In this document: positions 1 through 15,090 of the stretch, piece by piece | Layout: each line of letters opens with the position of its first letter | Numbering within the stretch: the stretch's first letter is position 1 | DNA from: Pseudohongiella acticola | Lineage (GTDB): Bacteria > Pseudomonadota > Gammaproteobacteria > Pseudomonadales > Pseudohongiellaceae | Length of the DNA: 64,000 bases | Direction of reading: 5' to 3' | Assembly: GCF_001758195.1 (NCBI RefSeq) | Contig: NZ_MASR01000001.1 | Coordinates: 434,001-498,000 of the forward strand | Made by a program: the position numbers and the translations under genes | The notes under the pieces: model-generated | Told to the model about the DNA's origin: nothing | Seen by the model: the letters and a program-made list of their open reading frames with translations, nothing else | Database searches by the model: none

Positions 1-258
1 GGCACGAATCGCTGCCATTGAACTCATCAGGTTACCGCGCTCAAACGCCAGCGTGTAAGGCAGTCCCAGCTCTTCCATCAACCAGACCAGACGCTCTGAG
101 CGGCGGCCTTCCAGGTGATAGATAGTAAACTCGGGCATCTCCATGGCAGCGCCCTGCGCCGACACGTCAGATGGTGCCAATGCTGCCAGACCGGCTACGC
201 CGACACTCAGCAGACCTGCGAGAATCAATGACCTTGTTGTTTTGCGATTGCTTTGCAT
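1..258 (-). CDS. Exported glutathione S-transferase-like protein, N-terminal part (runs off the left edge)
   Basis: Eighty-six codons are visible before the window ends. Residues 1 to about 35 form a signal peptide: basic start (MQSNRKTTRS), hydrophobic core, then an Ala-rich stretch ending near VSAQG. From about residue 42 the sequence (FTIYHLEGRRSERLVWLMEE) matches the start of a GST thioredoxin fold, with an S-E-R segment where GSTs carry the catalytic Ser/Tyr and an L-M-E-E-L-G-L-P-Y helix-strand. The ATG at 258 has GGAG about seven bases upstream on the minus strand. GSTs are normally cytosolic, so the leader is unusual; an internal start at the MEMPEF codons would give a normal cytosolic GST. 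The C-terminal half is outside the window, so substrate cannot be inferred. It lies 111 bp downstream of the GNAT gene on the same strand. Confidence 0.75.
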   Translation of the reverse strand, partial: MQSNRKTTRSLILAGLLSVGVAGLAALAPSDVSAQGAAMEMPEFTIYHLEGRRSERLVWLMEELGLPYTLAFERGNLMSSMAAIRA

Positions 259-369
259 CTTGGTGCTCCGATTTTTTGCGTTTTTATGGGTGTCAGGTTG
301 CCCGGACCACTGTCACGGACAATCCAAAAGTGCAACGTGTATCCTAGCCCACTCGATGTCAAGATACCA

Positions 370-939
370 TCAAGTTGCCTGGCCCTCCGTCGATTCGGCA
401 AACGCTGCCAGTGAGGCCAGCGCGTCCCCGGTCAGGCGTTGCACCGTCCACTCATCCATGGGCTCGGCGCCAATGGAACGATAGAAGTCAATTGCCGGTG
501 TATTCCAGTCCAGCACTGACCATTCCAGCCGACCACATTGCCGGTCCCGGGTGATCCCGGCGAGATGGCTCAACAGTGCCTTGCCGATGCCTTTGCCGCG
601 CATGTCCTCCTGCACATACAGATCTTCCAGGTAGATACCGGGGCGACCGAGAAAGGTTGAGAAATTGTGGAAAAACAACGCAAAGCCCACCGCCTTCTGT
701 TCCCATTCGGCGATAATCACTTCTGCCACCGGGTGTTTGCCAAACAGATACTCACTGAACAGCGCCTCGGTCGCCACAACTTCGTGTAGCAGCTTTTCGT
801 AGATGGCCAGTTCACGCACAAAACCCAGAATAACGGGCACGTCATCGATTTCTGCTGGCCGGATGGTCAGTTTTTCATTAATTTTTTTCACGTTTTCAGG
901 CTCTCTTACAGGTACAGTCGTAGTAATAGCAACAACCAT
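370..939 (-). CDS. GNAT family N-acetyltransferase (diamine/thialysine acetyltransferase-like)
   Basis: A single GNAT domain of about 165 residues. The core begins at KLTIRPAEIDDV and includes YLEDLYVQEDMRGKGIG, which holds the acetyl-CoA pyrophosphate-binding motif (R-G-K-G-I-G), followed by the LEWSVLDWNTPAIDFYRSIGA segment typical of SSAT-like enzymes. Such proteins acetylate amines using acetyl-CoA. The ATG at 939 begins only 9 bp after the stop of the ABC exporter, so it is probably the last gene of the FAAL/ACP/exporter operon. A GTG at 891 (VKKINEKL) is an alternative start that would remove a poorly conserved 16-residue head. Whether it acts on the exported product or is a generic polyamine acetyltransferase cannot be told from sequence. 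Confidence 0.85.
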   Translation of the reverse strand: MVVAITTTVPVREPENVKKINEKLTIRPAEIDDVPVILGFVRELAIYEKLLHEVVATEALFSEYLFGKHPVAEVIIAEWEQKAVGFALFFHNFSTFLGRPGIYLEDLYVQEDMRGKGIGKALLSHLAGITRDRQCGRLEWSVLDWNTPAIDFYRSIGAEPMDEWTVQRLTGDALASLAAFAESTEGQAT

Positions 940-948
940 ACCACGACT

Positions 949-3021
949 TTAACCAAGACGGATTATACGATCAGCAATCTCCAGCGGGGCCGGGCGATGC
1001 GTGACAAAGACGATGGTGGCATCAAGCTTTCGCAACTGCTGCAGTATCCTGGCCTCGGTGTCAGCATCCAGATTGGCCGTGGCTTCGTCGAGAAAAACAA
1101 ACGGCGCCTGTTTGTAGAATGCTCTGGCCAACAAAATGCGCTGGCACTGACCGGCAGACATCATGGAGCCCATGTCGCCAATCAGGCTGTTGTACCCCAT
1201 GGGCAGTCGGCTGATCAGATCAGATATGTCTGCCATGTCGGCCACACGTGCCAACCGGTCCTGGTCAACACGTTCAGCAAACAACGTTATATTATCGGCT
1301 ATGGAACCCGAGAGAAGCTGATCGCCCTGTAGTACACCAGCACAGCTATCACGGAACTGGCGCAAACCCAGTTGCCGAATATCAGTACCATCGACACTGA
1401 TCGTGCCCGCGTTCGCTGGCAGCAATCCGGCCATGAGTTTCATTAAAGTCGATTTGCCACAACCGGACGGGCCAGCGATTGCAATAAGCTCGCCAGGCCG
1501 AATAGCGACAGACAAATCGCTAAACACGAATTCTTCGGTCCCGGGATAGGCATAACTGACGCCGCACAAACGCAACTCTCCATCCAGTGGCCGACGCACA
1601 ACCGGCAACTGCAAGGTGTCAATTTCTTTCTCAGTGCAGGTAATATCCGAGACTCGTTCCAGCTGCAGCCTTACCAGGCGGATCTGTACCAGCTTTTCTA
1701 CAAAGGAACGGATAGAGGCTGAAAAATTTCCCTTCAATGCGATAAAGGCGGTCAGAAACCCGAGTGTAATCTCACCACCGAGCACCAGTCGCGCAGCGAG
1801 ATAGATTACCAGAATATTTTCCAGCGCAAACAGCAAGCCATAAACGGCGTCCAGGCCGATGGTAAACCGAGTTAACGCAACCTGAGCGTTAATCTGTTCT
1901 GCATATGCATTACGCCAAAGGGTCATTCGTTGCAGTTCACGACAATAAAATTTTATGATTTCAATTGTGCGCATATTTTCCATCAGGCTAGTGCTGGTTT
2001 TTGCTTCCGCCACAATAATCTGTTCCTGCATCGCTTGAATCTTCGGAACAAGGACCAGTTTTAGCACCGTAACCACACCAACAAACACTAATACCACCAG
2101 TGCCAGCATTGCGCTAAAATAGAGCATAACGGCAAGGGTAATCAGCGCGAACACACCATCCAGCACAACTGTTATCAGGTCTTCGGTGATGATGCGACGA
2201 ATTTCCCGAACCGAACCAAATCGGGACACCAGGTCACCGACATGGCGTCTGCCAAAAAAGTCCACTGGCAAACTCAGCAAATGCTGAAAAACGTTGCCAG
2301 CCATTTGAAAGCCTAGCTGGTTAGAAAAATACAATTGCGCTGTTGAACGTGCAAACGTCATGGCAACACTACATAAGGCAAGCATAAAAAATCCGGTAGC
2401 CAGAACTGCTATGATATCCCGGTCCTGCTTTGCTACACCTTCATCGATAACCAGTTGCATATAGAAAGCACTACCAATGGACGCCAATTGTAGAAACAAT
2501 GACAACATCAGCAACTGCCCAATGGTCCGATAAAAGCCGGGATACGTCCGAAAAAGATCAGTTAATCGCGACCGCAGCGTATGCGTTCTGGCAGCGAACT
2601 CAAGACCGGGAACCATTTCCAGAGCAATGCCCGTGAAATGACGGCTCGTTTCCGCCAATGTATAGCGGCGTACTCCAACCGCAGGATCATGGATATCCAG
2701 GCCTTTACGAGTGACACGTTTGAGAACCACAAAATGCGTCATGTCCCAGTGCAATATCGCTGGTAACTGTAAATGGCGCAGATCGTTGAGCTCCAGTTTC
2801 AGTGGCCTCGGGTCGAGCTGCAACCGACGCGCAATACTCATGATCTCTGAAAGGTTAGCTCCCCGACTCGACACCGTAAAATCTCGACGCAGACTATTTA
2901 GATCCGTTCGGTAGCCAAAGTAAGAGGCTATCATCGCGACACACGCCAACCCGCACTCTGTTCGCTCAGCTTGCAGTACCACTGGGAGGGTTCTGCCCCT
3001 ATCAAACAATTGCCTGATCAT
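949..3021 (-). CDS. Peptidase-containing ABC exporter (C39 protease, membrane and ATPase domains; CvaB/RaxB type)
   Basis: About 690 residues in three parts. An N-terminal C39 peptidase (about 1-125) has an apparently complete catalytic set: Gln17, Cys23 in T-E-C-G-L-A-C, His96 in T-H-F-V-V-L and Asp112 in H-D-P-A. A six-helix exporter membrane domain follows (about 150-430), then an ATPase with Walker A (GPSGCGKST), Walker B (FVFLDEATANLD) and an H-loop (VTHRP). The signature is MSAGQ rather than LSGGQ. Family members cut double-glycine leaders from peptides and export them through HlyD and TolC-like partners. The ATG at 3021 overlaps the hlyD stop as ATGA, indicating translational coupling; a longer reading from 3066 would intrude into hlyD. 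No double-glycine precursor was found nearby. Confidence 0.93.
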   Translation of the reverse strand: MIRQLFDRGRTLPVVLQAERTECGLACVAMIASYFGYRTDLNSLRRDFTVSSRGANLSEIMSIARRLQLDPRPLKLELNDLRHLQLPAILHWDMTHFVVLKRVTRKGLDIHDPAVGVRRYTLAETSRHFTGIALEMVPGLEFAARTHTLRSRLTDLFRTYPGFYRTIGQLLMLSLFLQLASIGSAFYMQLVIDEGVAKQDRDIIAVLATGFFMLALCSVAMTFARSTAQLYFSNQLGFQMAGNVFQHLLSLPVDFFGRRHVGDLVSRFGSVREIRRIITEDLITVVLDGVFALITLAVMLYFSAMLALVVLVFVGVVTVLKLVLVPKIQAMQEQIIVAEAKTSTSLMENMRTIEIIKFYCRELQRMTLWRNAYAEQINAQVALTRFTIGLDAVYGLLFALENILVIYLAARLVLGGEITLGFLTAFIALKGNFSASIRSFVEKLVQIRLVRLQLERVSDITCTEKEIDTLQLPVVRRPLDGELRLCGVSYAYPGTEEFVFSDLSVAIRPGELIAIAGPSGCGKSTLMKLMAGLLPANAGTISVDGTDIRQLGLRQFRDSCAGVLQGDQLLSGSIADNITLFAERVDQDRLARVADMADISDLISRLPMGYNSLIGDMGSMMSAGQCQRILLARAFYKQAPFVFLDEATANLDADTEARILQQLRKLDATIVFVTHRPAPLEIADRIIRLG

Positions 3022-4262
3022 AACCTTCTCGTGACCCCGCGTAGTGGAGACGTGAGTTTTTCCCACACAGTCTGTTCGCCTGTCACTATATCAGCGGAGA
3101 ACTGCAGGCCAGGCCTGAAACGCTGTGTTGATTCTGACGAAGGCCCCTGGTCTGCAATATGTGCCTTAACCAGGTAAACCGGTTCACGAACATCCACAGG
3201 AAACAGAAACTCTCGTGGGTCCATGACTGAATCTGCAACACTGGTGATTTGTGCCGAGAAGCTGCCATAAGTCTGGTAGGGATACGCATCATAGGAGATC
3301 ATTACAGGTGTTTCTTTGCCGACATTAGCAAGAGCTCTAGACGGTAAATAGAGCAAGGCCTCGAGCTTTGTGTCAGGGTCAAGCAATGTCACCAGCGGTT
3401 CACCGGGATCAACTACATCCCCCTCTCGCAACACGAAATTGCTGACAATGCCATCTCGTGTGGCGGTAATAGTGAAACTGCGCTGGAAATGTAGCTCATG
3501 TTGACGAGCCCGCAACTTCGATATCGCGTTATCCAATACAAGATGTTCCTCCTGAGCAAGTAGCGGTATTATCAACAGTTGCTGTTCCGCTTCAGCCATA
3601 GCCTGGCGATGCTGTTCAATAGCCAGATCACCCGCTTTTACCTGCTGCTGCAACTGATAGAGTGTTGACGCAGACTGGCGGAAGGTACGTTCTGAGATAG
3701 TACTGGCCCGGTGGAGTTTATCGCTTGCCTGAAAATCCTGTTCGGAAAGCTGAACGCGGAGCTGTCGAATACCCTGCTCTTCTTTAAGCAGGTTCAGCGT
3801 ATTTTGCATGCCAAGAAGTTGGATGCGAATTTTCTGCAGCTGCGCATCAAACCTTTCTGTCAAGACAACTTTTCGATGCTTCAATTGATTCAGCTGAGTT
3901 TCTGTTTGCTGCAATGCCTGGTCCGGCATTCGCTGACCATATTGGTCGTGATGCGTACCGGCCAGTGTAGCCAGAATATCTCCAGCGCTCACGATGTCAC
4001 CGTCTTTGACAGCAACGTCTGTCACTATTCCGGATTTCCCGCCATATACCTTGACCTCGCCGCCATTCGCAGTCAGAACACCACGAACCTGCTGTGTCTG
4101 CTTTATTTCAGCAGTACATATAAAGGCCAGAAAACCGACAAATACCAACAGAAGAAACGAAACCATTAAACGAACCGTTAATGGTTGATAGAAAATAGCT
4201 TCACCAAACTGGGCACCTTGCTGTGCGTACAGAATTTCAGTACGGAATAACTTTTCATTCAT
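3018..4262 (-). CDS. HlyD-family periplasmic adaptor of the exporter
   Basis: About 414 residues. A short cytoplasmic head (MNEKLFRTEILYAQQG) is followed by one membrane segment (about 31-50), a first half-lipoyl/beta-barrel stretch (VYGGKSGIVTDVAVKDGDIV), a long Gln- and Leu-rich coiled coil (about 105-265), the second half-lipoyl stretch (FTITATRDGIVSNFVLREGD) and a C-terminal barrel. This is the layout of adaptors that link an inner-membrane ABC exporter to an outer-membrane TolC channel; no TolC gene is in the window. The ATG at 4262 lies 1 bp after the acyltransferase stop. A TTG at 4280 would overlap that gene and is less likely. The 3' end overlaps the exporter gene by 4 bp. Confidence 0.93.
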   Translation of the reverse strand: MNEKLFRTEILYAQQGAQFGEAIFYQPLTVRLMVSFLLLVFVGFLAFICTAEIKQTQQVRGVLTANGGEVKVYGGKSGIVTDVAVKDGDIVSAGDILATLAGTHHDQYGQRMPDQALQQTETQLNQLKHRKVVLTERFDAQLQKIRIQLLGMQNTLNLLKEEQGIRQLRVQLSEQDFQASDKLHRASTISERTFRQSASTLYQLQQQVKAGDLAIEQHRQAMAEAEQQLLIIPLLAQEEHLVLDNAISKLRARQHELHFQRSFTITATRDGIVSNFVLREGDVVDPGEPLVTLLDPDTKLEALLYLPSRALANVGKETPVMISYDAYPYQTYGSFSAQITSVADSVMDPREFLFPVDVREPVYLVKAHIADQGPSSESTQRFRPGLQFSADIVTGEQTVWEKLTSPLRGVTRRL

Positions 4263-4263
4263 A

Positions 4264-5475
4264 TCAACAAGCGGCCTCAAAGTATGCGGGTAAATTGCTG
4301 AGATATTTCCATTGCGCCGGCCATCTACTGATCCAGTTCTCTGCCAGTGCCACCAGTGCCTGGGTTATTCGCTCCGTTGCCTGTTGCAGGTCTTCGTCTG
4401 GCCAAACACTGGCATCGATTACCGGTGCCATTTCAATGCAGTTTCGACCATGGTGCTCATAACAAACGAAGGGATAGATTGGACTCCGACCAAGTATCGC
4501 CAATAGTGCCGGCCCCTTGACAAACTTTGAGCGACGCCCGAAGAAATTGACCGTCACTGTACTGCCAAAGTCTTCCTTCAAATCAAATAGAGTCGCCAGG
4601 GTATGACGCCCTCGCCGCAATGCACTGACAATTGTGGTCGACGTATTTTGATGATGATAAATTACCTGATGAGCAACGCGATCGGCGGAGAAGTTCTGCA
4701 TGCCATGATCGGAGCCTGGCTCGCGTCGCAATGAAATCGCAGCCCGCCCTGCATCAGAGACTGATGACAGTGCCCGAAATCCACCAAAAAAATCTCCCAT
4801 ATGAATAGTCACGAGGACACGCGAACCAGCATTATTCTGTATCGCTTGCTGGTAATCGGCCTTGTCTGGCCAATAAAAACGCTCTAGATAACGGCTGCTC
4901 TCGTGTCTGTTCTCCAGATGTATCAGGCGTCGCGCATAATTTAAGTGATACCAGAATGTGTATTCACGCCAAATCGATCTGACTCGAGACTCTGGCTCAT
5001 GTAAAAGACAGGCCATCACTGTACGCTGAGTGTTCATGAATTCGCCATACCTGCCCTGCTGTTGAAAGTACAACTTTGCCCAGGACAGCATCGAAAAAAT
5101 TGTGCGTTTATGGTTATCCCTGAGCCCGGATTTCATGCAAGACCTCAAAATTGAGCTGACTTTCACTTCGGCGCGCTCAAAAAATGACATGTGAAGCTGA
5201 GCGTCAGTGAGTGTCTCTATTAATGACAATAGTAACTCGCATTGAAGTCGGGCTCCGTCGCTTGAACAGTCACGCACTGCCAGTGTCAACCCAGCCTCCG
5301 AACGCACCACCCAGACACCAATATCCGTAGTTGAATGCTTGCGCATAACGTCAATGACAAAGTACTCACTACTCGATGCCATTACTTCCTCAAGAATTTC
5401 ACGCAACAATAGCAAGGTCTGCTTACTGTTGGCTTTTTCAGTTGCGCTTTGGACTCTTTCGTCAAACGTAGGCAT
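4264..5475 (-). CDS. LpxL/HtrB-like acyltransferase with an altered catalytic motif
   Basis: 403 residues. The C-terminal 190 residues resemble late lipid A acyltransferases: a strand running into IHMGDFFGG (His225), the FFGRRSKFVKGPALLAILG block that in LpxL binds the acyl donor, then IYPFVCYEH. LpxL enzymes use H-x4-E; here the acidic position is Phe230, and Asp228 is the nearest acid. The first 200 residues match nothing I recognise and replace the LpxL membrane anchor. It begins 4 bp after the ACP stop and ends 1 bp before hlyD, so an acyl-ACP made by the upstream ligase is the likely donor. Acceptor unknown. The missing Glu means activity is uncertain, or the enzyme has a shifted mechanism. 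Confidence 0.75.
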   Translation of the reverse strand: MPTFDERVQSATEKANSKQTLLLLREILEEVMASSSEYFVIDVMRKHSTTDIGVWVVRSEAGLTLAVRDCSSDGARLQCELLLSLIETLTDAQLHMSFFERAEVKVSSILRSCMKSGLRDNHKRTIFSMLSWAKLYFQQQGRYGEFMNTQRTVMACLLHEPESRVRSIWREYTFWYHLNYARRLIHLENRHESSRYLERFYWPDKADYQQAIQNNAGSRVLVTIHMGDFFGGFRALSSVSDAGRAAISLRREPGSDHGMQNFSADRVAHQVIYHHQNTSTTIVSALRRGRHTLATLFDLKEDFGSTVTVNFFGRRSKFVKGPALLAILGRSPIYPFVCYEHHGRNCIEMAPVIDASVWPDEDLQQATERITQALVALAENWISRWPAQWKYLSNLPAYFEAAC

Positions 5476-5479
5476 GTAA

Positions 5480-5791
5480 CTAATTTTCCTGACAGTCTAC
5501 GTTCTCACAGTCACGCGCCGTTCCCAACGCTTCCATTGGAATGGACAACTCTGTGGAAAAAAGAGCGATCAGGTCGCCAACTTTCTCCAACTCAGAAAGA
5601 CGTTCTTCATCTACATCCAATTGGTAGAAGCTTTCCAGCTGATACACAATCTCCACCAGTTTCAGCGAATCCAACCCTAATTCTGCCAGAGGTTGTTGGA
5701 CTGACAGTAGAGATGTATCCCCGGTAATCCCCTTTGCTTTCGAAATTTCAAAAGACACTTTTTGCCATACGTCATTATCGTATTCCTTCAT
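5480..5791 (-). CDS. Stand-alone acyl carrier protein
   Basis: 103 residues with the carrier-protein signature L-G-L-D-S-L-K; Ser42 should carry 4'-phosphopantetheine. The fold continues with LVEIVYQLESFYQLDVDEE, the helix II-III region of type II ACPs. The ATG at 5791 has a very strong ribosome site (AAGGAGG, 5 bases upstream) and overlaps the ligase stop as ATGA. A longer reading from 5839 has no such site. The C-terminal tail after about residue 85 is acidic, with two Cys. Placed directly after a fatty-acyl-AMP ligase, it is the natural acceptor of the activated acyl group, and the next gene is an acyltransferase that could unload it. Confidence 0.92.
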   Translation of the reverse strand: MKEYDNDVWQKVSFEISKAKGITGDTSLLSVQQPLAELGLDSLKLVEIVYQLESFYQLDVDEERLSELEKVGDLIALFSTELSIPMEALGTARDCENVDCQEN

Positions 5792-7428
5792 CTTTTCCTC
5801 CTTACCTGCTTCACTCGTGTCAGATATATATCCGGACACAGATGCCTTCTAATTTTGCCGCTACTGGTCAGCGGCAATGTGTTTGCAGGCAATACACAAA
5901 CATCATCGGGCACGACATCAATCGCGGCAACCACAACGGCGGTAGCGCGAGACGCCAGTTTCTGGTCGGAGAGTGAATTTTCACATTCGCCTTTCGTTGT
6001 GCTTTTCTTTGCTCTTTCCAGGATAACAACAAGGCCCCCGCTGTCGGGTTCATTCGTCTCGAATGCAACACATCGTGAAATTATCTGAGCACTAAGTTCA
6101 CGCTTCATTTCGGCCTCTATATCTTCTGCATGAATACTGCGCCCTCGTCGTTTGATGACGGTCTTGTACCTGCCCAGCAGGAACAGCTTCCTGTTCCGAA
6201 TGAACCCACGATCGCCAGTTCTGCAATAGTATTTCCCGTACTCTCTGATACGATTAAAGGTCTTTCTGCTGGCAACTGAATCCCCATAGTACGAGGAAGC
6301 CACAGAAGGAGAGCTAATACAGACTTCACCGATCTCTCCTTCGGCTACTTTCCGACCGGTGTTTCGATTGACGATAATGATTGAGGTATCTGGCTCTGGT
6401 CTCCCCAGACACACGCTGGCACTGATATTTTCAGCCTGAACCGGAGATTGTATCGAGATGCCGTGTTGACCACTGACGAACAGGGTCGATTCAGCAAGTC
6501 CATAACAGGGAAAAAACGATGCAGGTTCGAAAGCGATTGTTGAAAATTTTTGTGCAAATTTTCTGAGCGATTCGGGCCTTATTTTTTCAGCACCACAGTA
6601 CGCCAGACGCCATTTCTTCAGCGACAGATCGGCCAGTTCGTGCTCGCTTATTCTGGCTGCCGCCAATTCAAATGCGAAGTCAGGACCGCCACTAAGGGTC
6701 CCGCCAAACTGCGACATTGCACGCAACCACCTGACCGGATTGGCCAAAAAATCGACAGGACTGATAAAGTAGTTATGCAACCCTGCATACAGAGGTTCTA
6801 TCACATGTCCGATTAGTCCCATATCATGATGAAACGGCAGCCAGGACACACCAATATCATTCTCGTTGCATGTAAACGCTTTTTGAATCTGGGCCGCATT
6901 GTGCATGACATTGTCGTGGCTGATGACAATCCCTTTGGGTGACGAAGTAGAGCCGGAGGTATACTGAATAAATGCGGTATCGCTACCCGAAAACGTCGGC
7001 CTCTTATATATTTCACCGCGACTGCGGATTTCATCAACCAACAGTACCTGGACCCCGCTGCTTGTCATCGCCTCTGGCAATATACCCGCACGGCGGGAAG
7101 TGGTAACGACAGCGAACGCGTTACAGGCACTGATCAGTCTGTCCAGTCCATTACGGGCCCGTGTAATGGGCACCGGCCATGCGCCAGCAGCTATGCAGGC
7201 AAAAAAGGCAACAATGAACGTCGGCCCATGCGGGCAATACAACAGAACAGGTCTACCCGCGCATTGCTTACTTTGCAGCACAGCAGCAAACATGATTGCT
7301 TGCTCATACACATCCCGGAAACTCAGGGTTGAAATGATTTTTGAATTTCGATCCAGAAAGGAATACACCGGTCTATTCGCATCTATAACCGCCCTGTTTT
7401 CCAGAAGGTCCAGCAAAGTGCCATCCAT
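5788..7428 (-). CDS. Fatty-acyl-AMP ligase (FAAL)
   Basis: About 546 residues of the ANL superfamily. Motifs: P-loop YTSGSTSSPKG (156-166), LPFHHDMGLIG (197-207, the FAAL/FACL H-H-D-M-G-L block), CYGLAEST and YCRTGDRGF. The HHDMG and FPCYGLAE forms are characteristic of FAALs, which make acyl-adenylates and load them on carrier proteins rather than CoA. The ATG at 7428 (MDGTLLDLLEN) has GGTGG upstream; reading from 7500 adds a basic head with no support. First gene of the operon; its stop overlaps the ACP start by 4 bp. The FAAL-specific insertion that blocks CoA use was not verified here, so the ligase/CoA distinction rests on motifs and the ACP neighbour. Confidence 0.92.
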   Translation of the reverse strand: MDGTLLDLLENRAVIDANRPVYSFLDRNSKIISTLSFRDVYEQAIMFAAVLQSKQCAGRPVLLYCPHGPTFIVAFFACIAAGAWPVPITRARNGLDRLISACNAFAVVTTSRRAGILPEAMTSSGVQVLLVDEIRSRGEIYKRPTFSGSDTAFIQYTSGSTSSPKGIVISHDNVMHNAAQIQKAFTCNENDIGVSWLPFHHDMGLIGHVIEPLYAGLHNYFISPVDFLANPVRWLRAMSQFGGTLSGGPDFAFELAAARISEHELADLSLKKWRLAYCGAEKIRPESLRKFAQKFSTIAFEPASFFPCYGLAESTLFVSGQHGISIQSPVQAENISASVCLGRPEPDTSIIIVNRNTGRKVAEGEIGEVCISSPSVASSYYGDSVASRKTFNRIREYGKYYCRTGDRGFIRNRKLFLLGRYKTVIKRRGRSIHAEDIEAEMKRELSAQIISRCVAFETNEPDSGGLVVILERAKKSTTKGECENSLSDQKLASRATAVVVAAIDVVPDDVCVLPANTLPLTSSGKIRRHLCPDIYLTRVKQVRRKR

Positions 7429-7693
7429 GGCAACACCACCCTTGAGTTTTTGAAACGTCCGGTATGTATTTAGCGGATTTGAACGCCTTCGTTTTGGCAA
7501 TCAAACGCACAAAAACGAATCTGTGAGCCAGCGCACAACTCCGACAAAAAGTCCCGGTAATGAGCAAAATACCCACGCAAAAAAGCTATTTTTGCTGTAA
7601 AAAGCACAACACGTTGCTGGGCGAAGCCTTCATCGACAGACAGGGAGCAGCACCGGCAAGTAGGACATACCGCAATCATCAGGGAACGATGTC
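7429..7693. promoter_or_regulatory. Divergent intergenic region between the FAAL operon and the diiron oxygenase
   Basis: 265 bp separate the FAAL start from the oxygenase start and must hold both promoters if the units are divergently expressed. I see no convincing -35/-10 pair. A minus-strand reading frame at 7679-7470 (69 codons) fills most of it, ending 41 bp before FAAL. It starts with a Cys-rich head (CPTCRCC) but has no ribosome site and no classical double-glycine leader, so I do not call it a gene. The oxygenase start at 7694 has AGGGA eight bases upstream. Confidence 0.4.
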
Positions 7694-8632
7694 ATGAACA
7701 CACCAACCGCCAGCGGTTTTATTACGCAACTGCACGGACATATCAACTGGGACTATGCCGCCACCAGAACTCGCGTTCACAGTCTTTATGAACTGGCCAA
7801 AAACCGCGTCTGGAAAACCAGTGAGGCGCCGTGGGAAACCCTGACGGACAGACGTCTGCCACCTAGTCGCCACCAGTTTGAACCGCTGGCCGGCTTTGCC
7901 CCGTTTGATGCCCTGCCCCGGGATAAAAAGAACGCGTGCAGCTGGCACCGCCACGCACTGGAGATCAGTGACATCCTGCACGGCGAACAGGGAGCGTTGC
8001 TGGTGTCATCACAATTGGTGTCGAGTATGCCGACGGTTGAGGGCAAACTGTTTGCCAGCTCTCAGGTCTCTGACGAGGCCCGACATGTGGAATTCTTTTC
8101 GCGTTACCTGCTGGAAAGCACGGGCGAGGTCCACCCACCCAGCGAGGCGGTGGCCAACCTTATCGAAACCATGGCCAATGACTCGCGCTGGGACTACAAA
8201 TTCATTGCCTGTCAGATACTGTTGGAAAGCCTGGCACTGGCGCGCCTGCAGGAAATCCGTCGCGCCACGCTGGTGCCGGTACTGGCTTATGCCATTGATT
8301 TTATTAACGCTGATGAAGCACGGCACGTCAAATTCGGTACCGAAATACTGAGCCAACATCTGGCCACACTCAACGCCGATGAACTGCAGGCGCGCAGCGA
8401 CTTTGTTGTCGACCACCTGTTGGGCCTGAGCAATGCCATGAATATCTATACCCGGTTAGCGCAGGCATTTGACTGGGATGATCGGGAACTGCGCTGCCAT
8501 TTGCGGCAAAACCGGATCAGACATCCACAGCCGCGATATGACCTGTTCCGGCAACTGACGCTGAATATGAAAACGGTGGGATTGCTGACGCAGAAGACTG
8601 AACAACGCCTGAGCTCGCTTCGCGAACCGTGA
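7694..8632 (+). CDS. Ferritin-like diiron protein, probable oxygenase/desaturase
   Basis: 312 residues, all-helical by appearance. It carries a four-helix diiron ligand set: Glu98 in H-G-E-Q-G, Glu128 and His131 in D-E-A-R-H-V-E-F-F, Glu179 in L-L-E-S-L, and Glu208 and His211 in D-E-A-R-H-V-K-F. Two E-x-x-H helices, each paired with a Glu helix, are the hallmark of the ribonucleotide reductase R2/ferritin-like oxidase superfamily; several members hydroxylate or desaturate carrier-bound or free acyl and amino substrates. The start has AGGGA upstream. It is divergent from FAAL and ends 16 bp from the convergent 2OG oxygenase. Membership in the acyl pathway is inferred from position only. Confidence 0.8.
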   Translation: MNTPTASGFITQLHGHINWDYAATRTRVHSLYELAKNRVWKTSEAPWETLTDRRLPPSRHQFEPLAGFAPFDALPRDKKNACSWHRHALEISDILHGEQGALLVSSQLVSSMPTVEGKLFASSQVSDEARHVEFFSRYLLESTGEVHPPSEAVANLIETMANDSRWDYKFIACQILLESLALARLQEIRRATLVPVLAYAIDFINADEARHVKFGTEILSQHLATLNADELQARSDFVVDHLLGLSNAMNIYTRLAQAFDWDDRELRCHLRQNRIRHPQPRYDLFRQLTLNMKTVGLLTQKTEQRLSSLREP

Positions 8633-8648
8633 GGTTCTGCTAAGCCAG

Positions 8649-9269
8649 TTAAGTCAGCCGAATATTCAGCTGATTGGAAAATTCTTCGCGCCCGATTTCA
8701 CCGGAGAAAAAGGTGTTGAACGACAGGCTGACACGGTCGACCTGCTCTGTCACCTCACTGACGCCGTGGCGGACATTGGACGGAAACAGGATGATGTCAC
8801 CCATACCTGTCTGCACAAAATAACGCGACGCATTGTAGTAAGTGTCCTGCTGGCGAAGCAGTTCGTACCAGACGTTATCATCGTTACGATAAAAATTAAT
8901 GCCATCGGTGGGTGCCAGATTGATATATAGCACGCCACTGACAACACTGTTGGGATGGGTATGGGTGTGGTGTGCATCACCTTTTTGGGAACGCGTCAGC
9001 CAGGACTGGGTTATCTGCAGTGACACATTGTTGCTGGTGTTGAAGGTGATTTTGAAATACTGCTCCAGATGAGCCTGCAGTGCCGCGCGAATGGATTTCA
9101 TTGCCGCGGCATCCAGTACCTTCTTGTTGGCCGAGGCATAATTGGAAATCGCCTGCACCGGCTCGCTGAGCTCGGCTTTGAAGAATTGCATTTCCTCAGC
9201 CGTGAAGTCTCTGCCCAGTGCCCCGCGGTAAAGGGGCACTGCGAACATGTTCATCATCTGGTGTTCCAT
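8649..9269 (-). CDS. 2OG-Fe(II) oxygenase-like protein (TIGR02466-type)
   Basis: About 206 residues with the double-stranded beta-helix pattern of small bacterial 2-oxoglutarate/Fe(II) oxygenases: SWLTRSQKGDAHHTHTHPNS (metal-binding His cluster), SGVLYINLAP, then GDIILFPSNVRHGV (distal His) and an Arg ten residues later (V-D-R-V-S-L-S-F) that would bind 2-oxoglutarate. This is the layout I recall for the TIGR02466 family, whose substrates are mostly unknown. I start at the ATG at 9269 (MEHQMMNMF), preceded by AGGGGCAG; reading from 9374 would run back through the argG hairpin. It is the next gene after argG on the same strand and convergent with the diiron gene. Confidence 0.8.
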   Translation of the reverse strand: MEHQMMNMFAVPLYRGALGRDFTAEEMQFFKAELSEPVQAISNYASANKKVLDAAAMKSIRAALQAHLEQYFKITFNTSNNVSLQITQSWLTRSQKGDAHHTHTHPNSVVSGVLYINLAPTDGINFYRNDDNVWYELLRQQDTYYNASRYFVQTGMGDIILFPSNVRHGVSEVTEQVDRVSLSFNTFFSGEIGREEFSNQLNIRLT

Positions 9270-9299
9270 CTGCGCCCCTGCCTTTTCCCGGTGACACAA

Positions 9300-9323
9300 T
9301 TGCCAGGTGTTGCCACCTGGCAA
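9300..9323 (-). terminator. Perfect hairpin just after argG
   Basis: TTGCCAGGTG / loop of four / CACCTGGCAA: a perfect 10-bp stem starting 5 bases beyond the argG stop. No T-run follows on the minus strand, so it may be a weak terminator or an mRNA 3'-end stabiliser between argG and the oxygenase gene. Confidence 0.6.
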
Positions 9324-9327
9324 CACG

Positions 9328-10542
9328 TCAGATCTTGCGACCCTTGTTGGCGGCGATGCGCAAACGCAACGCATTCAGCTTGATGAAGCCGCCTGCGTCT
9401 GCCTGATCGTAGGCACCGGCGTCGTCTTCAAACGTCGCAATACTGGCATCGAACAGGGAATCGGCTGATTCGCGGCCAACAACAGCGACACCGCCTTTGT
9501 ACAGCTTGAGCCGGACCGTACCGTTAACGTACTGCTGGGAGTAATCAATCAACGCCTGCAGTGCCTGTCGCTCTGGCGAGAACCAGTAGCCGTTGTAGAC
9601 CAGCGTCGCGTACTTCGGCATCAGCTCATCCTTCAGGTGCGCCAGTTCACGGTCAAGCGTGACCGATTCAATGGCACGGTGACCCTTCAGCATGATGGTG
9701 CCGCCGGGGGTTTCATAGCAGCCACGCGACTTCATGCCGACATAACGGTTTTCCACGATGTCCGCGCGGCCAATGCCATTGGCGCCGCCGACTGTGTTCA
9801 GATGGGCCAGCACTGTGGCTGGTGACATTTTTTCGCCGTCAATGGCAACGATGTCACCCTTCTCGTAGGTCAGTTCGATGTAAGTTGGTGTGTCTGGCGC
9901 CGTTTCCGGTGACACCGACCACAACCACATGTCTTCTTCCGGCTCGGCGCCGGGGTTTTCCAGGATGTCGCCTTCATAGGAAATATGCAGCAGGTTGGCG
10001 TCCATGGAGTAAGGCGACTTGGTGCCGCGCTTCTTCTCCACCTGGATACCGTGTTGCTCGCAATAAGCCAGCAACTTGTCGCGTGAGTTGAGGTCCCACT
10101 CACGCCAGGGGGCGATCACGCGAATGCCCGGTTTCAGCGCATAGGCGCCCAGCTCAAAACGCACCTGATCGTTGCCTTTGCCGGTGGCGCCGTGAGAGAT
10201 GGCATCGGCGCCGGTTTCGTTGGCAATCTCTACCAGTCGCTTGGCAATCAATGGACGGGCAATCGAGGTGCCCAGCAGGTACTCGCCTTCATACAGGGCA
10301 TTGGCCCTGAACATGGGGTTCACAAAATCACGCACAAACTCTTCGCGCAGGTCTTCAATGAAGATTTCCTTGATGCCCATTGCCTTGGCTTTGGCACGCG
10401 CCGGTTCAAGCTCTTCACCCTGACCCAGATCTGCGGTAAAGGTTACCACTTCACACTGGTAGGTCTCCATCAGCCATTTGGCAATCACTGATGTATCCAG
10501 GCCACCGGAATAGGCCAGCACGACTTTATTGATGCCCGACAT
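9328..10542 (-). CDS. argG: Argininosuccinate synthase
   Basis: 404 residues, the normal length for the short (type 1) family. It joins citrulline and aspartate using ATP to make argininosuccinate, the penultimate step of arginine synthesis in the cytosol. Visible motifs: the N-type ATP pyrophosphatase loop [10 protein letters not shown] at residues 9-18, [15 protein letters not shown] (citrulline/aspartate site) and a conserved [17 protein letters not shown] stretch. The ATG at 10542 has GGAG five bases upstream. The pathway partner argF is 4 kb away in the same block, separated by motY-like, pyrC, rnt and grxD, an order I recall from Pseudomonas. Confidence 0.98.
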
Positions 10543-10634
10543 GTTTGCTCCTGTCTGCGAGTCTGTAAAAAGGCGGTTATTGTACTCGTTCCGTCAGGCA
10601 AATTCGACAGGAAGCATCAAGACCTGAACAGGAC

Positions 10635-11528
10635 TCACTCGCGCAGCAGGCGAACGGTCACGCGGCGGTTGCGGTCACGATCGGCCGCTGAGCGTTCATT
10701 CTCAACAATACGGAACTGGGGAGCAGAGCCGAAGAAGCGGGTATTGAGCATATCCTCATTAACACCCTGATCCACCAGATACTGATGAACAGCAAATGCC
10801 CTGATCCTGGATAGCTCAAAATTTTCCCGGGGGTTGCCGGCACCGTCGGTGAAACCATTGATTTCAAATCCGTAAACAGCAGGGTCGGCTTCTATATAGG
10901 TGACAATGTTATCCAGCTGAGCCTTCATATCCTCGTCCAGTTCCTGCTGATTGGTCTGCCAGAACACCGTGGAACGTTCAATTTGCCCAAAATTGACAGG
11001 TAACAGAGATGCCGTGCAGGTGTGATACTGGGAATAGGCGCCGCCAAAATGCACGGGCGACAGACCCACATGCACTGATTCCTGATCATTGAACCAGGCT
11101 CCCCGCATCAGCGTCGGCACCATGCCCCGCTCCAGTTCGGCCATCAGCATGCGGCTGCGCTGGGCGGTCAAGGTGACCGGCCGCTTGCTGATCTCAACAT
11201 CCACATAACCCAGGTCGCGCACCGCAAGTTCCTGGCGCCAGACCGGAGGCTGCGAGGTCAGCAATGCCCTGCCCGCCTGCATCGGCGAATCGGGTGTCTG
11301 CAGATAAAAGCGTAGCGATTCGCCAGCCTGATGGTAAAATACAGCCTGACCGAAGCCGGGAATCTGCTGAGTCAGCAGACATTCGAATACCGAGCCATCA
11401 ACCTGCCAGCCAGCCACGTCTATGTCGGCATAGTAAGAAGAAACCGAACCGGCCGGCGCCATCGGTGCGAACAGCGTCACACAGAGCATCGAGAGCCAGG
11501 ATAAGGTAAACTTACATCGCTTTTTCAT
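10635..11528 (-). CDS. motY: MotY-like OmpA-domain periplasmic protein
   Basis: About 297 residues with a signal peptide (MKKRCKFTLSWLSMLCVTLF, cut near APAGS). The N-terminal 150 residues resemble the MotY-specific domain (YYADIDVAGWQVDGS, then a Y/F-rich sheet). The C-terminal OmpA/Pal peptidoglycan-binding domain contains EINGFTDGAGNPRENFELSRIRA and ends RDRNRRVTVRLL. MotY forms the T ring that holds sodium-driven stators in the flagellar basal body. Start taken at 11528 (MKKR); the longer reading from 11573 has no signal-peptide logic. No motor or flagellar gene is nearby. The same neighbour order (argG, motY, pyrC, rnt) is known in pseudomonads, which supports the name. Confidence 0.82.
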   Translation of the reverse strand: MKKRCKFTLSWLSMLCVTLFAPMAPAGSVSSYYADIDVAGWQVDGSVFECLLTQQIPGFGQAVFYHQAGESLRFYLQTPDSPMQAGRALLTSQPPVWRQELAVRDLGYVDVEISKRPVTLTAQRSRMLMAELERGMVPTLMRGAWFNDQESVHVGLSPVHFGGAYSQYHTCTASLLPVNFGQIERSTVFWQTNQQELDEDMKAQLDNIVTYIEADPAVYGFEINGFTDGAGNPRENFELSRIRAFAVHQYLVDQGVNEDMLNTRFFGSAPQFRIVENERSAADRDRNRRVTVRLLRE

Positions 11529-11697
11529 ACTCTGGATATGGATTCCGTCGTCAACAAAGAGTTTATTGAGCACTTGATGGAAGCTCGTCTCCTGTATTGA
11601 TCGGCCACGTGCCAGTAAACTTTACCGACAAACCGTTATCCAACAGTGCGGCCAAGGGCAACACTGACGAATCAACCAGCACAGGTATACCCGCCCC

Positions 11698-12747
11698 ATG
11701 ACAGTACAAACCCTGACTCTGACCCGGCCCGATGACTGGCATCTGCACTTGCGTGACGGCAAGGTATTAAGCCAATTGGTGGCACACACCGCCAACACGT
11801 TCCGCCGGGCCATTGTTATGCCCAACCTGAAACCGCCGGTCACGACGACGCAGGCAGCGCTCGCCTATCGCCAGCGTATTATCGACAGTCTGCCGGCCGG
11901 GCTTGATTTTGAGCCACTGATGACGCTCTATTTAACGGACACGCTGTCATCCGACGAGATTCGTCTGGCGCATGCTTCCGGCCATGTGCACGCCGTCAAG
12001 TATTACCCGGCTGGCGCCACTACCAACTCCGACAGCGGCATCACCGCCATCGAAAACGCGTTTCCGGCACTGGAAACCATGGTCGAACTGGGCATGCCTC
12101 TGCTTGTTCACGGTGAAGTCACGGATAGCCATGTGGATATCTTCGACCGGGAGAAAGCTTTTATCGAGCAGACCCTGCTGCCACTGTGTGCACGATTCCC
12201 CACCCTTAAAATGGTTTTTGAGCATATCACCACAGCCGATGCGGCAGAGTTTGTTACCGGCGCCAGTGACAATGTGGCCGCCACCATTACGCCGCAGCAT
12301 CTGTTATATAACCGCAATCACCTGTTGGTGGGCGGAGTCAGGCCGCACCTGTATTGTCTGCCGGTCCTTAAACGCAATACCCACCAGAGCGCCCTGATTG
12401 CAGCAGCGACCAGTGGCAATAAAAAATTCTTTCTGGGCACCGATTCCGCGCCACACGCCCGGCCCGGCAAAGAGACTGCCTGTGGCTGCGCCGGTTGTTT
12501 CAGCGCCCATGCCGCACTGGAGCTGTACGCTGAAGCCTTCGATCAGGCCGGCGCGCTGGACAAACTGGAGGCTTTTGCATCCTTTTATGGTCCGGATTTT
12601 TACGGTTTGCAGCGCAACACAGATACCATTACCCTGCACCGCGAAAGCTGGAATGTGCCGGCACACTATCCGTTTGATGACAGTACGCTGGTGCCGCTGC
12701 GTGCAGGAGAACAAATTCACTGGCGGATTAAAGGGGTCACTGCCTGA
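11698..12747 (+). CDS. pyrC: Dihydroorotase
   Basis: 349 residues, class II dihydroorotase size. It closes carbamoyl-aspartate to dihydroorotate, the third step of pyrimidine synthesis. Zinc-site motifs: [12 protein letters not shown] near the N-terminus (His pair), the carboxylated lysine in [14 protein letters not shown], and the catalytic Asp in GTDSAPHA. The stop overlaps the start of rnt (TGATG), so the two are translationally coupled. The start ATG has only a weak AGG upstream. pyrB lies 18 kb away in this window. Confidence 0.97.
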
Positions 12748-13391
12748 TGTACGATTATGATGATGACGATGCCAGCGAAAGTATTATGGCATCCCGCTTT
12801 CGGGGTTATTTGCCGGTGGTGGTCGATATCGAATGCGGTGGTTTTAACGCCAGCACCGATGCCATTCTGGAAATAGCTGCCGTCATCCTGGGCATGGACG
12901 AAAAGTCCCAGCTGGATGTTGAGCAGACCTACTTTCATCGGGTTATTCCGTTTGAAGGCTCCAACATCGAGGACGCGGCACTGAAATTTACCGGCATTGA
13001 CCCCTGGCATCCGCTGCGAGTGGCACGCGGCGAGCGGGACGTGTTTCAGGACCTGTTCAAGGTCATTCGCTCGGCGATGAAAGCCAATGGCTGCAAGCGC
13101 GCCATCCTGGTGGCACACAATGCGCATTTTGACCACGGTTTCATCAATGCTGCCGTTACCCGCCACGATCTCAAGCGCAACCCCTTCCACCCCTTCTCCA
13201 GCTTTGATACCGCCACCCTGAGCGGACTTGCCTATGGGCAGACGGTACTGGCCAGAGCCTGTGACGTTGCCGGCATTGCGTTTGACGGCAATGAGGCACA
13301 TTCAGCGAAATACGATGCAGAGAAAACCGCGCAGTTATTCTGTGGCATTGTTAATAAATGGCAGAAACTCGGCGGCTGGCCGCTGCGCTAG
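12747..13391 (+). CDS. rnt: Ribonuclease T
   Basis: 214 residues, a DEDD-family 3' exoribonuclease that trims tRNA and stable RNA 3' ends. Exo motifs are visible: VVVDIECGGFN (D-x-E), LVAHNAHFDHGFIN, and AHSAKYDAEKTAQLF near the C-terminus with the final catalytic His/Asp. The head before SRFRGYLPVV is unusually acidic (YDYDDDDASES). It shares one base with pyrC, so expression probably depends on pyrC translation. Two hairpins downstream separate it from convergent grxD. Confidence 0.96.
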   Translation: MYDYDDDDASESIMASRFRGYLPVVVDIECGGFNASTDAILEIAAVILGMDEKSQLDVEQTYFHRVIPFEGSNIEDAALKFTGIDPWHPLRVARGERDVFQDLFKVIRSAMKANGCKRAILVAHNAHFDHGFINAAVTRHDLKRNPFHPFSSFDTATLSGLAYGQTVLARACDVAGIAFDGNEAHSAKYDAEKTAQLFCGIVNKWQKLGGWPLR

Positions 13392-13399
13392 TCAGCGGC

Positions 13400-13465
13400 A
13401 CCGGGCGACACAGAGGGTGTGTGCCCGGTCAGTTCGATGCCCGGCCTGATGGAGTTCAGGCCGGG
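13400..13465. terminator. Two hairpins between convergent rnt and grxD
   Basis: First hairpin 13400-13429: ACCGGGC with ACAC paired against GTGT and GCCCGGT. Second 13440-13465: CCCGGCCTGA, six-base loop, TCAGGCCGGG, a perfect 10-bp stem. Neither has a clear T-run, but their place between two converging genes suits termination in both directions. Confidence 0.6.
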
Positions 13466-13473
13466 CCGTAGCA

Positions 13474-13824
13474 TTACGCCTGGTCAGCAGGTGCTGCCGC
13501 GGCGGAGGCATCAATCATGGTTTTAAGTTCGCCCTTGTTGTGCAGGTCCGTGATGATGTCACAGCCACCGACCAGCTCGCCGTCAATCCAGAGCTGAGGA
13601 AATGTTGGCCAGTTGGCAACGATCGGCAGTGTGGAACGAATTTCCGGATTCGCCAGAATGTCGACGTAGGCAAAACGCTGGCCGCAACCCATCAGACACT
13701 GCACAGCCTGAGCCGAGAATCCGCATTGCGGCTGATCCGGTGATCCTTTCATATAAAGAAGGATGTTGTTGGCGCTGATCTGGTCACGAATGGTCTGTTC
13801 AATGCTCGACTGTTCATTACTCAT
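13474..13824 (-). CDS. grxD: Monothiol glutaredoxin (Grx4 type)
   Basis: About 116 residues with the C-G-F-S active site (Cys34 in P-Q-C-G-F-S) and the glutathione-binding residues around WPTFPQLWIDGELVGGCDI. CGFS glutaredoxins bind a [2Fe-2S] cluster with glutathione and BolA and pass it to iron-sulfur proteins. The ATG at 13824 (MSNEQSSIEQT) has AGG upstream; the longer reading from 13881 has no support. The Ala-rich C-terminal tail is typical. Its place between rnt and argF matches the pseudomonad order. Confidence 0.95.
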   Translation of the reverse strand: MSNEQSSIEQTIRDQISANNILLYMKGSPDQPQCGFSAQAVQCLMGCGQRFAYVDILANPEIRSTLPIVANWPTFPQLWIDGELVGGCDIITDLHNKGELKTMIDASAAAAPADQA

Positions 13825-14124
13825 AATGGCATTACCTGTCCTGAAACTACGGTGGAATGTCGGGACCGCGTTGACTGTCATCGTTGACGAATATCAGGGC
13901 CCCGGGTTAATCGATGGCATATTCTACATGATTAGCGCCTGTTATCCGATAATTGCCCGCATCCTGTAAAGTAATATAAGATAGGGCGCTTGGTCAGAGG
14001 GTAGCAGACGCTGCCCTTTTTTAATTTTCGCCAGGTGTTGAGAGAATCAATTGACAACCCCAGCCTTGGCTCGTCGCCGGTTGCACGCAGCCGTGACCAC
14101 GTTCCCCGGGAAACACGTACCGAT
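13825..14124. other. 300-bp divergent region between grxD and argF
   Basis: Holds the promoter of grxD to the left and a leader of argF to the right. A -10-like TATAAG near 13973 with TTGCCC 16 bases upstream could start a transcript that meets a hairpin and T-run at 13999-14022. No reading frame here has a ribosome site, and I recognise no RNA gene. Confidence 0.5.
13999..14022 (+). terminator. Intrinsic terminator-like hairpin in the argF leader
   Basis: GGGTAGC, loop AGAC, GCTGCCC (one G-U pair), then TTTTTT. It reads along the argF direction about 100 bp before the argF start, and no plus-strand gene lies upstream for it to terminate. Attenuation of argF or a very short RNA are both possible. 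Confidence 0.65.
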
Positions 14125-15027
14125 ATGGCAACAAGACATTTTTTGACCTTGCTGGATCTCAGTCCGGTCGAGCTTCACGACATTATTCACCGTGCAATTG
14201 CGCTCAAAAAAAGTCCGGCCTTGCGCGAAGAGACTCTGAAGAACAAAACGCTGGCAATGATCTTCGAAAAATCATCGACCCGAACCCGTGTGTCGTTTGA
14301 AGTCGCCATGAATCAGCTCGGTGGCAGTGCGCTGTTTCTTTCCCCGTCTGACACCCAGCTGGGACGCGGCGAGAGCATCGAGGACAGCGCTAAAGTTCTG
14401 TCACGCATGGTCGATGTCATCACGATCAGGACCTTTGAACACGAAAAGCTTGAGCTGTTCGCGCGCCACAGCAAAGTGCCGGTCATAAATTCATTGACAG
14501 ATGACTTTCACCCCTGCCAATTACTTGCTGATATGCAAACGTTTTTTGAGCACAGAGGCGATATCGCCGGACACACGGTAGCCTGGGTGGGTGATGGCCA
14601 CAACATGTGCCAGTCCTACATTAATGCCGCCCGCCAGTTCGATTTTGAACTGGTCATTGCCTGTCCTGAAGGCTTTGATCCTGAAGACAGGATACTGCAG
14701 GCAAACAAAGACCGGGTTCGTATTGTGCGAGATCCAGCCACCGCCGTTGCCGGCGCCAGCCTGGTGGCAACGGATGTCTGGGCCTCCATGGGCCAGGAAG
14801 AGGAGCGCAGACTGCGCATCCAGAAATTCACCGGCTACGAAGTCACACCGGAACTGATGTCACGGGCAAAATCCGACGCCCTGTTCATGCATTGCCTGCC
14901 TGCGCACCGCGGTGAAGAAGTCAGTGCAAAAGTGCTTGATGCTGAAGAAAGCGTCGTCTGGGATGAAGCTGAAAACCGACTGCATGCACAAAAAGCGTTA
15001 CTTGAGTTCTTGTGCGCAACAAGCTGA
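14125..15027 (+). CDS. argF: Ornithine carbamoyltransferase
   Basis: 300 residues. It carbamoylates ornithine to citrulline in arginine synthesis. Carbamoyl-phosphate site [16 protein letters not shown], ornithine-site residues in DDFHPCQ, and the C-terminal [12 protein letters not shown] with the catalytic Cys. The start is the ATG at 14125 ([13 protein letters not shown]), the usual beginning of the family; reading from 14035 adds a head without homology that crosses the leader. A hairpin with T-run precedes it. A PAS-GGDEF-EAL gene follows 63 bp later. Confidence 0.97.
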
Positions 15028-15090
15028 AAATAAAATAGTTATTTCAGGTTTGCTGCGTAAAATACATAGTTACCGGAATACAATCGAGCC

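Follow-up and report, generated by a model that had tools for sequence, protein, structure and literature searches.

Within a 64,000-nucleotide stretch of the Pseudohongiella acticola genome (the window; G000:C1:434001-498000, in a genome of 3.6 Mb), an operon encodes a fatty acyl-AMP ligase (FAAL)-like enzyme, an acyl carrier protein (ACP), an LpxL/PatA-fold acyltransferase (hereafter AT), an HlyD-type membrane fusion protein (MFP) and a C39 peptidase-containing ABC exporter (C39ABC), with the gene of an AurF-like diiron oxidase running divergently from it. We lean towards reading this operon as the modification and export unit of a class II microcin-like peptide, in which FAAL, ACP and AT acylate the peptide, most likely at its C-terminal serine, before C39 export. 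The evidence for this reading includes the conserved linkage of the genes, an intact exporter peptidase, and the association of AT with a terminal serine in precursor peptides that have double-glycine (GG) leaders. Loci, genomes and genera are denoted by L-, G- and g-numbers, and AT+ and AT- mark genomes with and without AT. The unit comprises the following features of the window:

5788..7428, minus strand: FAAL, a fatty acyl-AMP ligase-like, AMP-binding enzyme (PF00501 AMP-binding, 1.2e-57)
5480..5791, minus strand: stand-alone ACP with an LGLDSL phosphopantetheine site (PF00550 PP-binding, 1.9e-8)
4264..5475, minus strand: AT, the LpxL/PatA-fold acyltransferase and proposed peptide O-acyltransferase (PF03279 Lip_A_acyltrans, 2.1e-9)
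3018..4262, minus strand: HlyD-type MFP (PF13437 HlyD_3, 5e-15)
949..3021, minus strand: C39 peptidase-containing ABC exporter (PF03412 Peptidase_C39, 6.9e-34; PF00664 ABC_membrane; PF00005 ABC_tran)
7694..8632, plus strand: AurF/R2lox-type diiron oxidase, divergent, a conserved member of the unit (PF11583, 2.8e-9)
7429..7693, no strand: divergent intergenic region, presumed from its position to be the control region for both transcripts

An original prediction for this stretch had listed six genes, from FAAL to a GNAT acetyltransferase gene behind the exporter, and these genes and their junctions held on re-reading of the sequence. FAAL and ACP overlap by 4 bp, ACP and AT are 4 bp apart, AT and HlyD 1 bp apart, HlyD and C39ABC overlap by 4 bp, and a 9 bp gap separates C39ABC from the GNAT; all six minus-strand proteins pass Pfam gathering scores. 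A promoter and terminator scan of positions 300-9400 gave sites not above those of shuffled sequence, with no promoter in 7429-7693. The genome has a single AT and a single exporter of this kind.

We fetched 34 loci in addition to the window, 19 from genera g1 and g5 and 15 from genus g4. The order AurF, then FAAL-ACP-AT-HlyD-C39ABC, extends across the g1/g5 loci, and because AT, HlyD and C39ABC keep their order in 19/19 of them while many flanking genes differ, the linkage is more than chance. AT, HlyD and C39ABC are present in 19/19, FAAL and AurF each in 18/19 and, by tblastn, ACP in 17/19; AurF is split over two frames in L042, and a contig end cuts L044. The coupling of a FAAL-ACP-acyltransferase module to a C39 exporter, for which a search of other genomes had been proposed as a check, is thus upheld by the relatives. 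The gene set first proposed stands from FAAL to C39ABC; its GNAT is not conserved, and the conserved divergent diiron oxidase had been left out. In genus g4, AT, HlyD and C39ABC occur together in 15/15 loci and ACP in 14/15, and the four remain linked despite different flanks.

The exporter has the features expected of class II microcin-type export, an intact C39 peptidase-ABC protein plus an MFP. Its Cys/His/Asp triad is intact in 34/34 aligned exporters (33 loci and the window), so that a cleaved GG substrate is to be expected, and the Walker A Lys and Walker B Glu are retained in all 34.

In 7/19 g1/g5 loci, short frames that carry a GG leader are found close to the operon. Those of L036 (one), L039 (two in tandem), L042 (two in tandem) and L044 (one) directly follow the exporter and share its strand; those of L049, L050 and L051 (one each) lie downstream of AurF, on the AurF strand. 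The leaders fit the 15-18 aa double-glycine type of class II microcin and bacteriocin precursors. In L039 and L042, the first of the two peptides scores above the TIGR03949 cut-off (class IIb bacteriocin, lactobin A/cerein 7B family), a model that has no match over cut-off in the window's own genome, and the L049 precursor gives a weak MccV Pfam match under cut-off; among the nine linked precursors, L051 alone matched an NHLP/proteusin-type leader model, the type that a selidamide precursor would be expected to have (leader_NHLP, 12.3 bits against a cut-off of 50.9). The tandem GG peptides right after the exporter (L039:5539-5872, L042:5650-5983) are possibly two-peptide bacteriocins and are followed by a small membrane-like protein. 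A long N-terminal extension precedes the GG leader motif in L050:5675-5932, L051:4009-4266 and L049:8182-8463, where the terminal serine is missing.

Six sites in the window's own genome match a leader profile of 20 columns (A1), and three of them begin short frames:

C1:2780026, plus strand: candidate precursor, 63 aa (E 0.005)
C1:2099946, minus strand: candidate precursor, 89 aa (E 0.087)
C1:1404232, plus strand: candidate precursor, 72 aa (E 1.99)

All three are unlinked to the operon; one has VSAA in place of GG, and one (L070) contains a Gly/Ser-rich stretch. A small, apparently membrane-bound ORF follows each of them, as well as the precursors of L039, L042 and L044 (membrane character by eye); such ORFs are possible immunity genes. 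The small double-glycine peptide gene that the original prediction had proposed to look for is therefore found near the operon in some relatives and, as unlinked candidates, in the same genome, and not next to the window operon: a first regex scan had given a single convincing candidate (L042), a second found no precursor in window positions 1-16000 and, in L002, a single frame that did not convince, and positions 16001-64000 were covered only by the genome-wide profile search, whose matches all fall elsewhere in the genome.

We searched a family sample of 99 genomes (Pseudohongiella and kin) for AT and found it in 46/99 with a single sequence and in 48/99 with a profile, one of these matches being weak; G052, with a weak match (2e-8), was left out of the AT+ set. 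A second leader profile, A2, which additionally includes the own-genome candidates, has matches in 74/99 family genomes, the low E-values of its training peptides being circular. The listed leader-profile matches in the family number 147 (matches column added by hand), from which 119 candidates were extracted and 114 kept after filters on leader score, length and closed frame in which the C-terminus played no part. All five discarded candidates scored <26, and their last residues are S (G039), C, R, R and A; the remaining matches were left out as unfetched (including G080, G082 and G098; some with E 3e-5 to 4e-4) or below the leader filter. The C-terminus was not selected by the profile either, since it spans the leader and five core residues only.

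A terminal serine occurs in 68/87 precursors from AT+ genomes versus 7/27 from AT- genomes (Fisher p 1.4e-6, a value inflated, like those of the other simple Fisher tests here, by kinship of genomes and precursors), and of the 39 precursor-bearing AT+ genomes, 34 hold one or more that end in serine. For comparison, serine is terminal in 45/427 large genes of the same loci and makes up 8.0% of residues in AT+ cores. The spike is restricted to position -1; at -2 the commonest residues are Asp (17) and Ser (16). When cores were clustered at 40% identity, serine was the majority ending in 21/33 AT+ and 3/16 AT- clusters (p 0.005). Within one precursor family, delimited by eye, AT+ members end in ..WWDPAGYYSRS or GYYNRS and AT- members in ..WWDPAGYYD and ..WWDPAGFYSSCGGGGGR. 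Elsewhere in the order, outside this family, 3/15 leader-positive peptides are Ser-terminal, all with class IIb-type Gly/Ser tails and from two genomes of one genus; these GG-type precursors (L236, L244 and L251; G292 and G272) end in DGDS, ARDS and DGGS and resemble class IIb siderophore microcins.

The most telling control is a genome in which a homologous exporter is present and AT absent. We searched 21 chosen genomes for the exporter by homology at a threshold of 1e-100 and found intact exporter loci without AT in G005, G013, G024, G047, G010, G035 and G057. In these, 0/7 precursors end in serine (ends D, D, D, Y, C, R and N; none scored in G024; p 6e-5). Adding G025, G048 and G053, where the absence of AT rests on the whole-genome profile because the exporter contigs are cut near HlyD, brings four precursors ending in D, M, H and S, and a count of 1/11 (p 1.3e-5). 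In G057 (L214), HlyD comes about 270 bp behind FAAL, and the interval holds neither an ACP nor an AT frame. On the exporter tree, some branches of which are long, AT absence requires three changes (a g3/g8 outgroup, a g5 subclade, and G053/G057 within g1). The original prediction had named homologous clusters lacking the exporter as evidence against it; what does exist is exporters without AT, which serve here as controls, and the g4 operons without FAAL or AurF discussed below.

FAAL matches fatty-acid--AMP ligase models of NCBIfam, all below cut-off, and in the PDB its best matches are 7r7e-g, labelled Polyketide synthase, while chains labelled FadD23 (8hd4), Fatty Acyl-Adenylate Ligase (3pbk) and FadD32 (5hm3) also match, at 5e-64 to 8e-54; by sequence, then, the AMP ligase resembles fatty acyl-AMP ligases and is probably a FAAL. 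The DSL-type site of ACP keeps its Ser in 25/25 called ACP frames, the preceding residue being D, E or G. The AT model (pLDDT 89.8) matched PatA (12 chains, best 5f2z, E 5.9e-11) and LpxM (two entries, best 5kn7, 1.8e-7), and no others at E 0.001. Enzymes of the LpxL/PatA kind acylate hydroxyls. In the AurF-like protein two EXXH motifs are invariant in 14 sequences, and its model (pLDDT 81.2) matches R2lox (1e-4), CmlI (1.2e-3; entry titled arylamine oxygenase) and AurF (2.1e-3; entry titled N-oxygenase).

From these elements a pathway can be proposed. The carboxylic acid that FAAL would activate and load onto ACP is probably a fatty acid; FAALs pass fatty acids to holo-ACPs rather than to CoA (PMC8460268). 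The diiron oxidase would probably oxidise the acyl chain or its precursor. AT, as its gene coupling and the serine correlation suggest, would move the acyl group from ACP onto the ribosomally made precursor, whose C-terminal serine hydroxyl is the most likely acceptor. HlyD and C39ABC, with a putative chromosomal TolC, would then remove the GG leader and export the lipidated core; cleavage and export are strongly suggested by the intact triad and the GG leaders. A single operon would probably serve several unlinked precursor genes, whose products are presumably bacteriocins. That a fatty acid is activated, transferred and exported on a product had been proposed originally and is supported in part; the unlinked precursors and their C-terminal serine had gone unnoticed. 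More tentatively, and with rather less confidence than in the reading above, we suggest that the class II microcin-like bacteriocins proposed here may form a new kind of ribosomal lipopeptide, their C-terminal serine bearing a fatty acyl group, O-linked and possibly oxidised, that is attached by an LpxL/PatA-fold AT recruited from lipid metabolism and supplied through a dedicated FAAL-ACP pair; a single operon would lipidate dispersed precursors ahead of C39 export. A full-text literature search, with most subscription journals outside its coverage, returned no description of FAAL, ACP, an LpxL-like AT and a diiron oxidase combined with a C39 exporter.

Several points weigh against this reading. 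Which group is attached and at which residue, that it is attached to the peptide at all, and the order of steps are things that we infer. LpxL enzymes carry an HX4(D/E) motif, unlike AT, whose His is invariant (31/31) with Asp at His+3 (29/31, N and E in the other two). No FAAL or AurF was found in the 15 g4 loci, which bears on the acyl source there: a FAAL search elsewhere in the g4 genomes (E up to 1e-40) gave 1/15, and AurF at 1e-15 was found in none of the 15 g4 genomes or of six g1/g5 genomes without AT, in a run that had no positive control. In g4, ACP may receive its acyl chain from fatty acid synthesis. In L040 (genome G066), AT directly follows FAAL with no ACP frame between them (8500-8900), and AurF is a 30-residue piece (10558-10647), so the operon looks damaged, decaying or misassembled; the single counted precursor of G066 ends in Asn. 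Among AT+ precursors 19/87 lack the terminal serine, including the linked ones of L049-L051 (ending ACR, GSH and GSH) and those of G018/G030 (..CSM). Conversely, the seven Ser-ending precursors of AT- genomes come from G001, G011, G041, G053, G064, G073 and G083. An exporter of this kind was not found at 1e-100 in these genomes apart from G053, and their precursors may be orphans or served by other machinery; the operon of G053, which the AT profile scores negative, cannot be judged since its exporter contig begins inside HlyD. Finally, the correlation between AT and serine may in part reflect shared ancestry of genomes and precursors.

An alternative that accepts acylation of the precursor places the acyl group on an internal residue or on the N-terminus exposed by leader removal, leaving the C-terminal serine to recognition, uptake or immunity. 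The linked AT+ precursors without terminal serine would fit such a scheme, as would the selidamides, known lipidated ribosomally synthesized and post-translationally modified peptides (RiPPs) that bear their acyl group on Lys or ornithine side chains (PMC9505594). The restriction of the serine spike to position -1, its absence from the seven precursors of the intact AT-less exporter loci and the hydroxyl chemistry of LpxL/PatA enzymes argue for the terminal serine as acceptor, and we regard acylation elsewhere as unlikely.

Also unlikely, in our view, is a scheme in which FAAL, ACP and AT make a separate lipid (a modified form of lipid A, say, or a glycolipid that is secreted, perhaps for self-protection), while a co-transcribed exporter handles unmodified microcin-like peptides. 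AT does belong to the fold family of lipid A and phosphatidylinositol mannoside (PIM) acyltransferases, and in g4 the operon adjoins waaA-, hldE- and lpxL-like genes (names by eye). A separate lipid would not explain, however, why the last residue of peptides that are mostly unlinked should vary with the presence of AT, and both the intact peptidase of the exporter and the linkage of AT, ACP, HlyD and C39ABC in a genus with different flanks speak against it.

Improbable, and more so than either of these, is a class IIb-like microcin whose C-terminal serine bears a non-fatty acid moiety, siderophore-like or an aryl acid, added through the AMP ligase and AurF-like oxidation. Class IIb microcins carry a siderophore on a C-terminal serine (PMC10233263), the diiron model also matches CmlI and AurF, and L070 has its Gly/Ser-rich stretch. 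The ligase nevertheless resembles fatty acyl-AMP ligases and the AT fold is that of PatA and LpxM; among the operon proteins no glycosyltransferase or esterase family matches were found (Pfam), and siderophore-attachment genes were absent from those scanned (Pfam, NCBIfam), the rest of the genome not having been searched. A link to aryl polyenes, which the original prediction had named as a known product that would speak against it, was not seen in the material read; an aryl polyene reading of the g4 cluster, suggested by gene sizes, was rejected on reading L057 by eye, and no ketosynthases were found among the scanned window proteins (Pfam) or by eye in L057.

The analogy drawn originally, in which the GNAT would be the acyltransferase of a selidamide-type system, is hardly credible: the gene lies 9 bp downstream of the exporter, and the NCBIfam model that it matches best is the RiPP N-acetyltransferase HaaN (53.7 bits, cut-off 250), but the gene adjoins the operon in just 3/19 other g1/g5 loci (L033-L035), its remaining matches are to small-molecule, RimI-type or general acetyltransferases, all sub-cut-off, and AT is the better candidate. 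Because the best match is HaaN, though below cut-off, the GNAT may yet have some role within the window itself. A 2-oxoglutarate (2OG) oxygenase gene likewise adjoins in 3/19 (the same three loci), and both genes were rejected as members of the unit:

370..939, minus strand: GNAT acetyltransferase, adjoining the operon, judged outside the system (PF00583 Acetyltransf_1)
8649..9269: 2OG-Fe(II) oxygenase-like gene beside the diiron oxidase (PF13759; TIGR02466 at 56.8 bits, cut-off 62.5)

Beyond the family, AT was found in 8/390 genomes of the order at 1e-30, every one a family member, and in 1/369 genomes of the class at 1e-20, the window's own genome, with the best few candidates per genome scored in both runs. 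By these sequence searches, AT occurs in about half of the sampled family genomes, with none in those sampled from the rest of the order and class at the thresholds used. A contig search with a single sequence detected no relative, and one with an alignment query later gave 16 loci, in records of Pseudohongiella (4), Gammaproteobacteria (11) and an Actinomycetota-labelled metagenome-assembled genome (1). The last, L200, holds a distant AT relative (30% over 178 residues, motif IHMGDFF) accompanied by an ABC exporter, an ACP, a MacAB-like pair and a TolC-like protein (labels by eye), which perhaps indicates a wider pairing of this acyltransferase with exporters. In g4, the one FAAL-like domain found elsewhere (L259; G070:C25:47017-48633) lies inside a 3748-residue open frame, probably a nonribosomal peptide or polyketide synthase. 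A protein of ~190-260 aa follows the exporter in 14/15 g4 loci (L057:14152-14832 and equivalents); its L057 copy has no Pfam match at 0.01, and we take it to resemble a REP-associated tyrosine transposase without the HUH motif. Small proteins near g4 operons, YbjQ (Pfam) and DUF1330-like and MAPEG-like ones (by eye), were rejected as precursors.

Should acylation of the terminal serine be correct, it would add a lipidation route for ribosomal peptides, one in which an acyltransferase of lipid A type acts on a hydroxyl, and the design of siderophore microcins, in which a dressed C-terminal serine precedes C39 export, would have a counterpart built from different enzymes. Marine Gram-negative bacteria might thereby deliver peptides to rivals with a lipid replacing the siderophore. 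A GG leader and a terminal serine, with an LpxL-like AT beside a C39 exporter, would then serve as a genome-mining rule. Relatives with the exporter and no AT are natural controls.

Among known systems, PatA and LpxM share the fold of AT, and their substrates are PIMs or lipid A; unlike theirs, the AT gene sits beside a peptide exporter and an ACP. Class IIa microcins (MccV with CvaAB) resemble the present system in exporter type and short GG precursors, but are unmodified save for disulfides (PMC10233263). The likeness to class IIb microcins (MccE492, MccH47) goes further, to a GG leader, an exporter made of a C39 peptidase-containing ABC transporter and an MFP, modification at a C-terminal serine (proposed here) and one machinery for several precursors; according to the same source, class IIb peptides carry an enterobactin derivative on that serine, and one exporter and modification set is common to several microcins. 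Unlike class IIb, FAAL, ACP, an LpxL/PatA-fold AT and a diiron oxidase are co-encoded here, most cores are without a long Gly/Ser tail, and the hosts are Pseudohongiella relatives, not enterobacteria; the class II microcin survey of PMC9746304 concerns Enterobacterales. With selidamides, goadvionins and lipolanthines the system would share an acyl group on a ribosomal peptide. Those use GNAT enzymes or polyketide hybrids (PMC9505594), whereas here the GNAT is sporadic and an LpxL/PatA-fold enzyme with FAAL and ACP is proposed to acylate serine.

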